52,610 nt of DNA. It comes from an uncultured Ectothiorhodospiraceae bacterium. GTDB lineage: Bacteria > Pseudomonadota > Gammaproteobacteria > UBA6429 > Thiohalophilaceae. The notes under the pieces are model-generated. The model was not told the origin of the DNA, made no database searches, and saw nothing but the letters and a program-made list of their open reading frames with translations. The stretch lies in contig CAMYMU010000034.1 of the NCBI GenBank assembly GCA_947259575.1, forward strand, positions 947 through 53,556, given 5' to 3'. Every line of letters begins with the position of its first letter. The first letter of the stretch is position 1. The translations under genes were made by a program, and so were the position numbers. This document shows, piece after piece, positions 45,737 to 51,875 of the stretch.

Positions 45737-47242
45737 ATGAAACAAGCATTACAACTCCGTCTTGGTCAACACCTAACCATGACTCCTCAATTGCAACAGG
45801 CAATCAAACTGTTGCAACTGTCGACGTTAGAACTCCAACAAGAAATCCAGGAAGCCCTCGATTCAAACTTGATGCTTGAAGTGGCAGAAGACGGTGATAC
45901 TGAGACTGCCAATAAACCTGAAAATGATTCAGAACAATCAGACCAACCCACACAATCCGAACAAGCGAATTCAAATGCGCAAGAGACACCCGATCAGGAA
46001 AAACCTGAGCAGGATAGTATGGAGTCTGAGACCATCCCGGAAGACCTACCCGTCGACAGCGCCTGGGATGATATTTATGATAATATCCAAACCTCATCAG
46101 CCTCACCAAGTTACCAGGAATCAGATCGCGAACAGGAAGTGGGTGACACGAATAGTGAAACCTTGCAAGAACATCTACGTTGGCAAATGCAGCTAACACC
46201 ATTCTCAGATAATGATTTGTTAATCGCCGACGCCATCATTGATGCGATCGACGATGATGGCTTTCTACGCACTAGCATAGAAGAACTACACCAGATTCTC
46301 CCCGACTATATGGAGATAGAACTGGACGAAGTGGAAGCCGTGTTACATCGTGTGCAAAATTTTGACCCACCCGGTGTCGGCGCCAGATCAGTTCAGGAAA
46401 GTCTGATACTCCAGCTCAAGCAGATACTAAATGAATCTGATGAGAATCATGTTGCCTTTAAACTTGTATCTGAATATTTTGACTTGCTTGCCAATCGTGA
46501 CTTTAACCAGTTGATGCGCAAACTGGGAATTGACGAGGAAGAACTCAAAGCCTTGATCACAATCATTCAATCACTAAACCCCAGACCCGGTAGCCAGATA
46601 ACGGCAAGCAAGGCTGAATACATTGTGCCCGATGTTTTTGTTCGAAAAATTAAGGGCAAATGGAAAGTTGAATTGAATCCGGATGCTGCGCCTCGTATTC
46701 GTATTAATGCGACCTACGCGGGGATGGTCAAACAGGCACAAAGCTCTGCAGATTCAACTTATATGAAAAATCATTTACAAGAGGCACGTTGGTTTATTAA
46801 GAGTCTTGCTAGTCGCAATGAAACCCTGCTGAAAGTCGCTACCTGCATCGTAGAAAGGCAGCGTGCTTTTTTAGAATATGGTGAAGAAGCCATGAAGGCT
46901 CTGGTATTGCATGATATTGCTGAGGCAGTTGATATGCATGAGTCAACTATCTCTCGAGTCACAACTAAAAAGTATATGCATACACCGCGCGGCATCTTTG
47001 AGCTGAAATACTTTTTTTCTAGTCACGTTTCCACAGCTGATGGTGGAGAGTGTTCTGCCACCGCAATTAGAGCCTTAATCAAAAAACTTATCGCAGCAGA
47101 AGCACCAGGTAAACCTTTAAGCGACAGTAAGATAGCAAATTTTTTATCCGAACAAGGTATTAACGTTGCAAGACGAACTGTAGCGAAATATCGTGAAGCA
47201 ATGGCTATTCCACCTTCGAATGAACGAAAGCGCTTAGCCTGA
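45737..47242 (+). CDS. rpoN: RNA polymerase sigma-54 factor
   Basis: Sigma-54 directs RNA polymerase to -24/-12 promoters and needs enhancer-binding activators. The 501 residues (E. coli 477) show region I ([20 protein letters not shown], about 6-26), a Q/D/E-rich acidic region II (about 50-115), the core-binding domain, an HTH ([15 protein letters not shown]) and the RpoN box [11 protein letters not shown] near the C-terminus. No strong ribosome-binding site before the ATG. Followed by hpf, ptsN and PTS genes as in relatives. Confidence 0.97.
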
Positions 47243-47262: not shown

Positions 47263-47589
47263 ATGCAACTGAATATCACTGGACATCATGTAGACATCAC
47301 AGAATCATTACAAAACTATGTAGAAAGCAAGCTTGAACGATTAGAGCGGCACTTTGATAACGTAACCAATGTCCATGTAATATTAACCGTAGAGAAACAA
47401 CGTCAAAAAGCCGAGGCAACCATTCATCTCAGTGGTGCTGACGTGTTTGCAGATGCCGTTAATAATGATATGTATGCTTCCATTGATGCATTAATTGACA
47501 AGCTTGATCGGCAGGTTAAAAAGCATAAGGAAAAAATGCAAGATCATCATCGTAGTGAAGGGCGAGCCCAAAAGCACACTGAAGAATAA
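47263..47589 (+). CDS. hpf: Ribosome hibernation promoting factor, short form
   Basis: HPF of 108 residues (E. coli 95) that forms 100S ribosomes in stationary phase. Family pattern: MQLNITGHHVDITESLQNYV start, DVFADAVNNDMYASIDALIDKLDRQ centre, and a basic helix end. No C-terminal long-form domain. Strong ribosome-binding site AAAGGAG 6 bases before the ATG. 20 bases after rpoN. Confidence 0.96.
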   Translation: MQLNITGHHVDITESLQNYVESKLERLERHFDNVTNVHVILTVEKQRQKAEATIHLSGADVFADAVNNDMYASIDALIDKLDRQVKKHKEKMQDHHRSEGRAQKHTEE

Positions 47590-47621: not shown

Positions 47622-48083
47622 ATGTTATTGACTGATTTAATTACACCCGAACGAATCGCTTGTGATGTCGATGCACAAAGTAAAAAACGCGCACTCGAGC
47701 ATTTAAGCGAAATTATTTCCCGTACAGAAGATACCATTTCATCAAATGATGTCTTTGAGAGCCTCCTGGCGCGCGAGCGTCTCGGCGGCACGGGCGTCGG
47801 ACATGGTGTTGCCATACCTCATGGCCGCTTAAAGGATAATAGCCATACACTTGGCGCCTTTATTAAACTACAAAAAGGTGTCGATTATGACGCAGCCGAT
47901 CATCAACCCGTTGATCTACTGTTTGCGCTACTCGTACCAAAAGAATCAACAGACGAACATCTACAAATACTTGCACAACTCGCTAAGATGTTTAGTAATG
48001 AAGATTTCAGGCAAAAATTACGTAATGCAGAGACTAGCCATGCAATCCATCAGCTACTAAGTGACTGGAACGAAACAGTTTAG
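47622..48083 (+). CDS. ptsN: Nitrogen-PTS EIIA component
   Basis: EIIA-Ntr (153 residues) with a PTS EIIA fructose-type domain; the phosphorylated histidine is H67 in HGVAIPHGR. In relatives it controls potassium transport and other processes through its phosphorylation state. It follows hpf by 32 bases and is followed by a 182-base AT-rich gap before hprK. Confidence 0.95.
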   Translation: MLLTDLITPERIACDVDAQSKKRALEHLSEIISRTEDTISSNDVFESLLARERLGGTGVGHGVAIPHGRLKDNSHTLGAFIKLQKGVDYDAADHQPVDLLFALLVPKESTDEHLQILAQLAKMFSNEDFRQKLRNAETSHAIHQLLSDWNETV

Positions 48084-48265
48084 TCAATAGCGATTTTTCC
48101 ACCCCTGCTAACTTGATTTTACCAAGTATTCATTACTAGTATTATCCTATTCAATATTTAAGTTCTTTAGCATCAGGTTTCACTGGTATTAGTTTTTTCA
48201 TCCACTAAGCTAATTCCTAACGAAACAATAAATACATATAAAAACAAACCTCAAGGTGCAAACTT

Positions 48266-48799
48266 ATGGGTCTAGCCGAACATTGTGAACATGGCGTATT
48301 TCTGTCAGTTTTTGGTGTTGGACTGCTGATTAAGGGCGATGCCGGAATGGGAAAAAGTACTCTGGCATTGGAATTAATAGAACGCGGTCATCAGTTTATT
48401 TGTGATGATGTTGTCCAGCTTAGTGTTGATAATACTCGACTCATGGGTAAAAGTCCGCAGCTTCTAAAAGACTTACTCGCTGTCCGCGACTTGGGTGTCA
48501 TAAATATTTCACAACTATTTTCAGCCGCTAGCTGTCTAATACAATACCCTCTCGATCTGGTGATTAAGCTCGTTGACAGTGAACATGGAATAAGATCAAC
48601 CCTAACCGGTATACAGTCTCATCTCACAATTTTAAACCATAAAATTCCAGTTCAGCTACTCCACGCGCATCCCAAGCGAAATCTTGCGATCGTCACAGAA
48701 ACCGCAGTAAAAAATCATATACTCTACAAACGTGGTCAAGATGCGGGTACACTCTTGGAAAAACAACAACAACAATTTATATATAATCAGACATCATGA
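48266..48799 (+). CDS. hprK: HPr kinase/phosphorylase, C-terminal domain only
   Basis: The 177 residues correspond to the complete catalytic domain of HprK/P and nothing more. Visible: histidine in HGVFLSVFG (residue 9), P-loop GDAGMGKS (24-31), catalytic acid pair D47-D48 (FICDDV), the family signature DLGVINISQLF, and the end RNLAIVTETAVKNHILYKRG. The N-terminal regulatory domain of about 130 residues seen in full-length HprK (about 310) is absent; short HprK is otherwise known from alphaproteobacteria. The residue after the P-loop serine is T, where full-length enzymes usually have E. The ATG has AAGG 9 bases upstream. Overlaps rapZ by ATGA. Confidence 0.9.
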   Translation: MGLAEHCEHGVFLSVFGVGLLIKGDAGMGKSTLALELIERGHQFICDDVVQLSVDNTRLMGKSPQLLKDLLAVRDLGVINISQLFSAASCLIQYPLDLVIKLVDSEHGIRSTLTGIQSHLTILNHKIPVQLLHAHPKRNLAIVTETAVKNHILYKRGQDAGTLLEKQQQQFIYNQTS

Positions 48800-49653
48800 A
48801 GTTAATAATCGTAAGTGGCTTATCCGGCTCTGGAAAATCGATTGCATTACAAGCACTTGAGGATGTGGGTTTCAATTGCATAGATAATTTACCGATGGCG
48901 CTACTGAATGCACTGGCCGTCCAAATCACCCATGCTGCCGATCCCATCTCTGAGCATTTCGCGGTCGGTATCGATGCTCGAAACCTGGCTCATGACCTTG
49001 AGCAGTTTCCTGAATTACTGGAAACCTTGCATGCAATGAACCTCAGCACCAAGGTAATTTATTTAACCGCGGACGAGCAAACGCTAATAAAACGCTTTAG
49101 TGAAACACGTCGCAAGCACCCACTTAGCACAGGTGAGACCTCTTTAAACGAGGCAATCGCACATGAAAGTAATTATCTTGCCCCTGTATCATCCAGCGCC
49201 GATCTAACCATTGATACCAGCCGCACCAATGTCCATCAGCTACGTGAGTTGATCAGGCAGTGTGTTGAAACAGACAATCAGGAAGGCATGTCGATCCTGG
49301 TTGAGTCATTTGGTTTTAAACACGGGATCCCTAATGACGCCAATTTTATTTTTGATGTTCGCTGCATTACCAACCCACACTGGGTACCTGAGTTACGCAG
49401 CAAAACTGGGAAAGAAGCAGATGTCATTGCTTACCTGGAATCTCATGAAGATGTTGGCAGAATGTACAATGATATATCTAGCTTTATCAATAAATGGATT
49501 CCAACCTTTGAAGAAGAAAACCGAAGTTATATGACCATCGCTATAGGTTGTACTGGCGGTTACCATCGGTCTGTATATCTTTCTGAAAAAATCGGCAAGG
49601 CATTACAGCAAAAATATAACAACGTCGTCATCAGGCATCGTGAGTTGTCGTGA
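48796..49653 (+). CDS. rapZ: RNase adapter RapZ
   Basis: P-loop protein of 285 residues (E. coli 284), which in E. coli binds small RNAs and guides RNase E in glucosamine-6-phosphate control. Walker A GLSGSGKS at 8-15, the DNLPMALL stretch, SFGFKHGIP, and the C-terminal GCTGGYHRSVYLSE block. The ATG overlaps hprK; the end overlaps EIIA as GTGA. Confidence 0.97.
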   Translation: MKLIIVSGLSGSGKSIALQALEDVGFNCIDNLPMALLNALAVQITHAADPISEHFAVGIDARNLAHDLEQFPELLETLHAMNLSTKVIYLTADEQTLIKRFSETRRKHPLSTGETSLNEAIAHESNYLAPVSSSADLTIDTSRTNVHQLRELIRQCVETDNQEGMSILVESFGFKHGIPNDANFIFDVRCITNPHWVPELRSKTGKEADVIAYLESHEDVGRMYNDISSFINKWIPTFEEENRSYMTIAIGCTGGYHRSVYLSEKIGKALQQKYNNVVIRHRELS

Positions 49654-50057
49654 GCGTTGGTTTACTCATAGTGACCCACGGCAATATCGGACAATCATTA
49701 TATGATGCGGCCGCACATATTATGGATAGCTGTCCAATCAGGACTCTAATTATTTCACTCCATGCAAACGATGATCGCGAAACTAAAGAAAAAGAGGTCA
49801 ATAAGACAATTAGCGAACTAGACACCGGTATGGGTGTGATCATTCTAACCGATATGTATGGCGCGACTCCAAGTAACATTGCCTGTCTGAACGAAACCAA
49901 TAACGTAAAGATTATATCCGGTCTAAATCTGCCAATGTTAATCAGGGTAATGAATTATCCAAATTTAAGCTTGTGGGAGTTAGCTGAAAAAGCAATAACT
50001 GGTGGCCAGGAAGGAATTTTATGTTGCCAAATTCAAAAGAGAGCCAATGCTTCGTAA
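49650..50057 (+). CDS. Mannose-family PTS EIIA protein
   Basis: Stand-alone EIIA of the mannose family (135 residues), with the phosphorylated histidine H10 in IVTHGNIGQSL and the DMYGATPSN motif. No EIIB, EIIC or EIID genes are nearby, so a regulatory role is likely. GTG start overlapping rapZ by 4 bases; the end overlaps HPr by 11 bases. Confidence 0.94.
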   Translation: MSVGLLIVTHGNIGQSLYDAAAHIMDSCPIRTLIISLHANDDRETKEKEVNKTISELDTGMGVIILTDMYGATPSNIACLNETNNVKIISGLNLPMLIRVMNYPNLSLWELAEKAITGGQEGILCCQIQKRANAS

Positions 50058-50316
50058 ACAAATTGAAATAATTAACAAACTGGGGATGCATGCCAGAGCT
50101 GCAGCAAAATTTGTTACCCTAGCCCAGACATTCAAATCAGATATAAAACTGGCACGATCTGATCAACAAGTTAATGGAAAGAGTATCATGGGTGTCATGA
50201 TGTTAGCTGCTGCAAAAGGTAGCATCATTGAATTAATTATCGAAGGCGAAGATGAACAGCAGGCCGTAGATTCACTCAGTCAACTAATCAATAATCGCTT
50301 CGAAGAAGATGAATGA
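50047..50316 (+). CDS. ptsH: HPr phosphocarrier (NPr-like)
   Basis: HPr-family protein of 89 residues. The EI-dependent histidine is H15 (KLGMHARAAAKF), and serine 46 in GKSIMGVM is the site HprK phosphorylates in other species. The start is taken at ATG 50047, which fits the family N-terminus; an upstream in-frame start falls inside the EIIA gene. No enzyme I gene follows; instead mgtE comes after 194 bases. It may be named npr from its position. Confidence 0.94.
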   Translation: MLRKQIEIINKLGMHARAAAKFVTLAQTFKSDIKLARSDQQVNGKSIMGVMMLAAAKGSIIELIIEGEDEQQAVDSLSQLINNRFEEDE

Positions 50317-50413
50317 GTATCCGCGCGTTTCAGACTCATTTAATCAGGTAGATATTCCTTTAGGTTCTATTCCGCAACCAGTTGCTATTCGTTTCCCTTA
50401 GCGAGTTTCACTT

Positions 50414-50419
50414 TATAAT
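50414..50419 (+). promoter_or_regulatory. Candidate -10 box upstream of mgtE
   Basis: A perfect TATAAT lies about 92 bases before the mgtE start, with only a weak -35. It would give a leader of roughly 85 bases. I see no recognisable magnesium riboswitch in it; a 5-bp stem ACACT/AGTGT lies just before the ribosome-binding site. Confidence 0.35.
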
Positions 50420-50510
50420 TTCAGTAGCTCTATAGCTGAATGCCGATCACTTGATGTCGATTTTATCAGCCCGCCCTGCTACACTTGCGTCAGTGTGAGG
50501 AGTGGTTGTA

Positions 50511-51875
50511 ATGAATAACGAAGTCAACAATGAAAAAGAACAAGACGTAAACATCCTCGCTCAATTAAATGAAGCGCTTGCGGATAATGATACGACTCTG
50601 GTCGAGTCGCTTCTCGAAGACCTGCACCCCGCAGAAATAGCCCACTACCTGGAAGCCCAACCTGGTGAGAAGCGTGAGCTGATCTGGCCACTAATTCAAC
50701 CCGAGCATGAAGGTGAAGTTTTATTACACCTAAATGATGAAGCACGTAGCGTCATCATGAAGAAAATGGATCCCGAATCGCTGGTTGCCGCCACCGAGAC
50801 ACTGGATACCGATGACCTTGCCGACATTCTGCCGGAGATGCCACAAAATGTTATCCAGGAACTGTTGCTCACCATGGAGTACCAGGACCGCGAACGTCTT
50901 CGCTCAGTGCTTGCCTATCCGGATGATTCTGCCGGTGGACTTATGGACCTCGACACGGTAATGGTGCGTGCAGATATCAGCCTGGATGTGGTGTTTCGTT
51001 TCCTAAGAAGACGAGGTGAAATACCGGCTACTACAGATAGTCTGTTCGTCGTCGACCGTGATGGTGTCTTTCTGGGACTACTTCCCTTTAACGATTTACT
51101 TACCCATGAGACCGATACAACCGTTGCAGAAATCATGCACGGTGATGTAGAAGGTATCCCGGCTGATATGCCCGCACAGGATGTTGCAAACCTGTTCGAG
51201 CGCCGTGACCTGGTGACCGCGCCGGTGGTCGACGAAGACAACAGACTGCTCGGGCGTATTACCATTGATGATGTGGTTGACGTAATCCGCGACAAAGCCG
51301 ATCACTCATTCATGGGTATGGCTGGTCTGACTGAAGAAGAAGATCTGTTCGCACCTGTCATTAAAAGTACCCAACGTAGACTGATTTGGTTAGGTGTAAA
51401 TCTAATCACCGCCATTCTCGCTTCTGCCGTGATCAGACAATTTGATGGCACTATTGATAAGCTGGTTGCACTCGCCGTACTCATGCCCATCGTCGCCAGC
51501 ATGGGCGGCATTGCTGGTAGCCAGACCCTCACTTTGGTCATCCGCGCAATGGCCCTCGGTCAAATTAGCAAAGCAAACGCACGACGACTTCTGTTCAAAG
51601 AAATGGGCGTCGGTATCTGGAATGGACTGATATGGGCCATCGTCGTCGCCGGCATCGCAGAAATCTGGTATCAGAACCTCAGCTTGAGTTTAGTCATCGG
51701 CTCAGCGATCATCGTCAACCTGATCGTCGCTGCCATAGCCGGCGCCACCATCCCGCTACTACTCAGACGAATGAATATTGATCCGGCACTTTCTGGAAGT
51801 GTTGTCTTAACGACCATTACTGATGTAATTGGTTTTTTTGTGTTTCTTGGATTAGCAGCGGTGTTTTTAGTCTAG
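50511..51875 (+). CDS. mgtE: Magnesium transporter MgtE
   Basis: Mg2+ channel of 454 residues: an N-terminal MgtE superhelical domain (about 10-130), two CBS domains (about 130-250) and a C-terminal membrane domain with five hydrophobic helices (about 280-452), including PIVASMGGIAGSQTLTLVIRAMA, which lines the pore in known structures. The start is placed at ATG 50511 because AGGAG lies 8 bases upstream; an in-frame GTG three codons earlier sits too close to that site. Confidence 0.96.
   Translation: MNNEVNNEKEQDVNILAQLNEALADNDTTLVESLLEDLHPAEIAHYLEAQPGEKRELIWPLIQPEHEGEVLLHLNDEARSVIMKKMDPESLVAATETLDTDDLADILPEMPQNVIQELLLTMEYQDRERLRSVLAYPDDSAGGLMDLDTVMVRADISLDVVFRFLRRRGEIPATTDSLFVVDRDGVFLGLLPFNDLLTHETDTTVAEIMHGDVEGIPADMPAQDVANLFERRDLVTAPVVDEDNRLLGRITIDDVVDVIRDKADHSFMGMAGLTEEEDLFAPVIKSTQRRLIWLGVNLITAILASAVIRQFDGTIDKLVALAVLMPIVASMGGIAGSQTLTLVIRAMALGQISKANARRLLFKEMGVGIWNGLIWAIVVAGIAEIWYQNLSLSLVIGSAIIVNLIVAAIAGATIPLLLRRMNIDPALSGSVVLTTITDVIGFFVFLGLAAVFLV

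Follow-up and report, generated by a model that had tools for sequence, protein, structure and literature searches.

A catalytic-domain-only HPr kinase with a degenerate signature in a gammaproteobacterial rpoN-PTS cluster

Downstream of rpoN in an uncultured Ectothiorhodospiraceae bacterium, in a cluster ordered rpoN-hpf-ptsN-hprK-rapZ-EIIAMan-HPr-mgtE, lies an hprK gene that appears to encode only half of the usual HPr kinase, which raises the questions of how the gene came to be so short and whether its product can still act on HPr. The window, by which we mean the whole stretch of 52,610 nucleotides that was analysed, comes from one draft genome (G000, 70 contigs). An earlier note on this DNA had described an HprK consisting of the catalytic domain alone, set in a gammaproteobacterial rpoN-PTS cluster; both Pfam and synteny bear this description out (Table 1).

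Table 1. Features of the rpoN-PTS cluster; positions are those of the window.
Feature	Position	Strand	Basis
rpoN (sigma-54)	45737..47242	+	Pfam
hpf (sigma-54 modulation / ribosome hibernation)	47263..47589	+	Pfam
ptsN (EIIA-Ntr), GVAIPHGR present	47622..48083	+	TIGR01419 above cut-off
ptsN-hprK spacer, 182 nt, no N-domain relic	48084..48265	+	N-profile search, ORF reading
hprK, catalytic domain only, 177 aa	48266..48799	+	PF07475 141 bits, no PF02603; fold match to HprK chains
P-loop GDAGMGKS, residues 24-31, then Thr instead of Glu	48335..48358	+	alignments
Degenerate HprK signature LAVRDLG, residues 71-77; Glu204 equivalent is Ala72	48476..48496	+	alignments; Glu204 role as given in PMC9399212
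rapZ, overlaps hprK end by 4 nt	48796..49653	+	NF003828 above cut-off
EIIA, mannose family, VTHG present	49650..50057	+	PF03610 69 bits
HPr, His15 and Ser46 positions kept	50047..50316	+	PF00381 108 bits; alignment
Spacer, 185 nt, where G001, G002 and G003 carry ptsI (EI); no EI relic	50317..50501	+	synteny, sequence reading
mgtE-like gene (provisional name), follows ptsI in congeners	50502..51875	+	synteny and identity

Short HprKs among gammaproteobacteria are not in themselves new, since PMC2405797 already describes truncated forms in alphaproteobacteria and Coxiella. At least 228 of 370 genomes of the class, drawn evenly, carry PF07475 above cut-off. The GTDB class searched may, we presume, include betaproteobacteria. 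According to a 2026 review, most proteobacteria outside the alpha group lack hprK (PMC13104625). In the literature we found no paper combining "HPr kinase" with "Ectothiorhodospiraceae".

The hprK frame opens with ATG, 8 residues before HGV, and has an in-frame stop 8 codons upstream, so that the protein does begin at the kinase domain, as had been noticed before. PF07475 (Hpr_kinase_C) matched residues 6-167 (3.5e-41, 141 bits against a curated cut-off of 33.3) and PF02603 (Hpr_kinase_N) had no match in the protein, which is the architecture of a short HprK. Two more specific models stayed below their cut-offs: TIGR00679, the two-domain equivalog for bifunctional HprK/P, with 150.4 bits against 240 over model positions 134-298 of 300, and NF003883 (HPr kinase/phosphorylase-related protein), with 143.6 bits against 252 over 16-183 of 189. 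An AlphaFold model (pLDDT 93.7), for which the input alignment was 40 window and locus sequences, superposed on Lactobacillus casei 1kkm_A with a Z of 25.8 (1.5 A, 174 residues; VIA-align), consistent with the fold of the HprK C-domain. When solved structures were compared with it, Coxiella's short chain 3tqf ranked first by Foldseek and second by sequence, after 1ko7.

Given that the N-domain might have survived as a separate or frameshifted gene, or might be intact in close relatives and lost here through a sequencing error, as the earlier note had allowed, we looked for it in several ways. The window's genome, which is 95.85% complete, gave no PF02603 match at E<=1; a search of all frames of the window with a profile made from 23 N-domains of the family gave no significant hit (best 5.7 bits, E 5); and the spacer upstream of hprK is too short for the ~130 residues of an N-domain; the frames upstream hold no relic. 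On these searches we reject a separate or frameshifted N-domain. The gene is short and syntenic in all four analysed genomes of the window's genus, g1, with its frame intact in G000, G001 and G003 and, in G002, split over two contig ends into two open pieces. The analysis covered 37 genomes of the family, and of the 33 outside the genus 28 carry a fused N-domain with PF02603 above cut-off; the shortening is therefore no sequencing error. The five without PF02603 are G006, in which the N-part lies beyond a contig end, G019, which is short, and G007, G008 and G022, in which an N-region is present and goes unrecognised.

The missing domain is not a proven regulatory one. It had been called regulatory in the earlier note, which suggested that this kinase may be regulated differently, and in passages of PMC2405797, PMC2937029 and PMC11204831 its role is called unknown. 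As reported in PMC2937029, removing 127 residues from the N-terminus of L. casei HprK leaves both of its activities in place, and all of its known regulation too. Loss of the domain therefore need not alter regulation, and the suggestion does not follow.

We turned to the neighbouring genes for the history of the locus. A tree of RapZ, PtsN, RpoN and Hpf, made by a quick method, unites G008, G022, G019 and G007 with genus g1 at 99 SH-aLRT, in a clade of eight genomes including the window's, and makes the short HprK here a local loss within the family. The family N-profile scored 123 bits in G017 and 133 in an outgroup, as against 26.5 in G007, 17.3 in G008 and 16.7 in G022, where a region of ~125-135 residues persists; in g1 and G019, neither of which has an N-region, it found nothing significant. 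The predicted structure of the G022 protein can be aligned with 1ko7 (262 residues, 4.0 A) and 1knx (285 residues, 4.7 A) across both domains, though the rows of its input alignment were mostly canonical and may have guided the fold. Given this weak N-region in three genomes and none in G019 and the genus, the N-domain appears to have faded in this clade before disappearing. G007, with an N-region and an hprK cut by a contig end, is placed weakly (80) between G019 and g1, so the domain may have been lost twice. In the family member G008 (L035, 4759-6063) hprK comes directly after hpf, and in the 12-kb stretch of that genome no ptsN-like ORF, EIIA-Man or ptsI was found.

The motifs of the catalytic domain have fared unequally. 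We aligned 131 kinase-domain rows, after dropping 17 loci that were fragments or duplicates, had split frames or matched in part. The Walker A motif and the DD pair expected of an HprK/P are intact, as the earlier note had it, and it was also right that the residue after the P-loop serine differs, being Thr here and Glu in 105 of the 131 rows. The active-site residues named in the cited part of PMC9399212 are His140, Lys161, Asp179 and Arg245, with Ser162 and Glu204 as Mg2+ ligands and residues 266-271 needed for dephosphorylation; the window protein keeps the equivalents of His140, Lys161, Ser162 and Asp179. The signature, on the other hand, had been described as kept and is not: against the consensus [ILM]E[IV]RG[ILMV]G quoted in PMC2937029, it has lost the Mg2+-binding Glu, which is present in 101 of the 131 rows and is Ala here, and its first Gly, after the Arg, has become Asp, while the second Gly remains. 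It is this second Gly that, by our own count along the sequence, would correspond to Gly207, the mutation of which affects HprK kinase activity according to a passage in PMC11204831. The same LAVRD occurs in all three genus members with this stretch (LAVRDIG in G001 and G003); the G002 assembly is without the stretch. The statement that the C-terminal motif is kept held for one half, RNLAIVTETAVKN being good, and failed for the other, in which the usual PVxPGR reads HAHPKR; the dephosphorylation loop (266-271) is degenerate. We set aside the Arg245 loop as evidence of decay: the aligned position holds T, E and N in the three g1 proteins, none of them Arg, but the alignment is poor in this loop, and an Arg stands close by in the window protein.

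Degenerate signatures occur in other short HprKs. The Coxiella burnetii HprK (3tqf), like that of the window, is gammaproteobacterial and consists of the catalytic domain only, and its signature reads ilitgig; three rows of our alignment that resemble it have ILITGIG, ILVTDIG and ILISDIG. They differ from the window protein in that GKSE is intact and the Glu position is taken by Leu rather than Ala. Across the alignment the signature Glu is kept in 31 of 53 short rows and in 68 of 76 full rows (Fisher p 8.8e-5; L001 and L116, with frames truncated at contig ends, are excluded). The rows in this count are related to one another, however, and their sampling was uneven, with weak matches oversampled on purpose and others hand-picked. 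Since, in addition, a test on independent pairs, two of them usable, showed nothing, we claim no class-wide rule linking a short HprK with loss of the Glu. The full-length HprKs of the window's own family (e.g. G005, L005) share the cluster and the kinase domain with it and differ in having PF02603 and a mostly canonical GKSE and [LIM]EVRG. The HprK of Xanthomonas campestris is probably full length. Like the window's, it is gammaproteobacterial and lies beside ptsN in an rpoN-PTS cluster, and the authors of PMC6916182 describe it as a serine kinase.

The rate at which hprK changes has also departed from that of its neighbours. Fitted on 351 pairs of 27 canonical family members (residual SD 0.039), HprK identity lay 5.9-10.2 SD below the RapZ trend in all 15 pairs, not independent of one another, among six of the eight clade members (without G002 and G007). 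Within the genus HprK had the lowest identity of the genes compared (42-63%, against 81-92% for RapZ, 75-94% for PtsN and 56-83% for EIIA-Man), although between the window and G003, where HprK stands at 42.4%, LptA (62.9%), LptC (62.8%) and EIIA-Man (55.6%) are fast too. Most pairs with the window were saturated at synonymous sites. Between G001 and G003 the dN/dS of HprK (Nei-Gojobori) was 0.24, three to eight times the 0.029-0.077 of RapZ, EIIA-Man, HPr, MgtE and EI; with the two pieces of G002 it was 0.25-0.36, and G001-G003 across the identical pieces gave 0.17 and 0.41. HprK is thus relaxed, not dead: selection persists, and a dN/dS well below 1, together with the frame intact in three genomes, indicates that the protein does something.

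What it does must be considered against the rest of the phosphotransferase system. HPr does keep both His15 and Ser46, as had been stated, and Ser46 had been taken as a sign that the kinase may still work; however, Ser46 is likewise kept in all five HPrs found in 12 genomes of the class that gave no hprK match, so we do not count it as evidence of kinase function. PtsN and the mannose-family EIIA carry GVAIPHGR and VTHG, which we take to hold the phosphorylatable and the active-site His, respectively. The permease families PF02378 and PF03609 had no match in seven of seven genomes, whereas in 14 control genomes they were found in 7 and 3, respectively. Between HPr and mgtE, ptsI is absent from the window's genome and present in the three congeners G001, G002 and G003, and it is missing from 4 of 11 family clusters readable through to mgtE (G000, G004, G008 and G022); according to PMC2405797, most alpha- and gammaproteobacteria have lost ptsI. 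An EI search of G000 gave three matches, and among the matches listed are a 766-aa frame (a 755-aa ORF with GAF, PtsP type) and a weaker 817-aa frame. We rejected loss of ptsI as a cause of HprK decay, because G004, without ptsI, has a canonical full-length HprK, and G001-G003 and G019 keep ptsI beside a short one.

We favour, with a probability of roughly 0.55, an HPr kinase that was inherited vertically and is now at a late stage of decay, with doubtful kinase and little phosphorylase activity. In the ancestor of the clade the N-domain would have lost constraint, leaving in genera g6 and g5 a region that is present and unrecognised by Pfam, and it would then have been lost in g17 and in g1, where the catalytic signature would have changed as well, Glu204 becoming Ala and the Gly behind its Arg becoming Asp. 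The remnant has the predicted fold of an HprK domain and, with its nucleotide and phosphate site kept (His140, Lys161, Ser162, DD), may bind ATP or PPi, and HPr. The signature change makes kinase activity doubtful: with the Mg2+ ligand gone, and judging from the annotated role of Glu204, phosphorylation of Ser46 would be poor or nil, and given the degenerate 266-271 loop phosphorylase activity would be slight. The working part of the system would then be a histidine relay from PtsP through HPr to PtsN and EIIA-Man, with PtsP, ptsI being gone from the window's species, left as the likely donor.

On the other hand, the gene might encode a fully working short kinase, one that uses ATP or PPi to phosphorylate Ser46, responds to phosphate by inhibition and has hardly any dephosphorylating activity, its signature changes being tolerated or compensated. 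The precedent is the Brucella melitensis HprK, which likewise lacks ~130 N-terminal residues and which, in the part of PMC2937029 cited, is a demonstrated active kinase with barely any phosphorylase activity; for the window protein kinase activity is putative. The His, P-loop and DD are invariant across the genus, the predicted fold is intact, purifying selection persists, and the 31 short rows mentioned above keep the signature Glu. Unlike those rows, however, the window HprK has lost both this ligand and the first Gly of the signature, and the raised dN/dS and an identity far below the RapZ trend also speak against a fully working enzyme, which leaves us regarding it as a serious candidate but on the unlikely side.

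A further reading, which we think improbable, is that HprK became a repurposed pseudokinase in the genus, in which the Ser46 kinase and phosphorylase chemistry would be gone and the fold and ATP/PPi site would be selected to sense energy or pyrophosphate and to titrate or sequester HPr, with intermediates still alive in sister genera. The retention of nucleotide-site residues beside the loss of the metal ligand and the dephosphorylation loop, and a frame kept across the genus at a dN/dS of 0.24, would fit; but simple decay predicts the accelerated change equally well, and partner and binding are putative.

The last alternative of any weight concerns origin and is compatible with the preceding readings of function: the short gene may have been acquired by in-place replacement from another gammaproteobacterium with a short HprK. 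By path, the nearest HprK rows outside the genus are indeed the short HprKs of family f10 (G045, G278), and a tree joining them to g1 was not rejected (AU p 0.867); nor, however, was one family clade (AU p 0.438), and in the free quick tree, where long branches meet, g1 fell with the three Coxiella-like rows at a support of 49.5. No alphaproteobacterial HprK was included in these trees, and the HprK gene tree holds too little signal to be used for descent. Since hprK is exactly syntenic in the genus and the N-domain is lost by degrees in the nearest genera, we judge replacement still harder to credit. A frameshift, misassembly or wrong start, conceivable in a single draft genome, is refuted for the domain loss by four short congeneric genes, the close upstream stop and the want of any relic, and hardly merits further thought.

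What is new here is another local loss of the N-domain with surviving intermediates, together with an altered signature that casts doubt on kinase activity. With a fading and vanishing N-domain, an eroding signature and canonical relatives as controls, the clade offers a natural series for the roles of the N-domain and of the signature Glu; otherwise it is one more case of the known reduction of regulatory PTS.

Several other loci in the survey are of interest in their own right. Methylophilaceae and betaproteobacterial MAGs, including Candidatus Methylopumilus (L087-L093), have short HprKs with 18-24 residues before the kinase domain, in which GKSE is kept and RH replaces RN in the C-terminal motif. 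The HprK match of G318 (L080/L153) contains one TAA and may be a pseudogene. Four very diverged short HprKs of family f88 (L097, L100, L103 and L105), with the signatures MHIHD, MHIRD and MHIRN, form a long branch with a support of 100.
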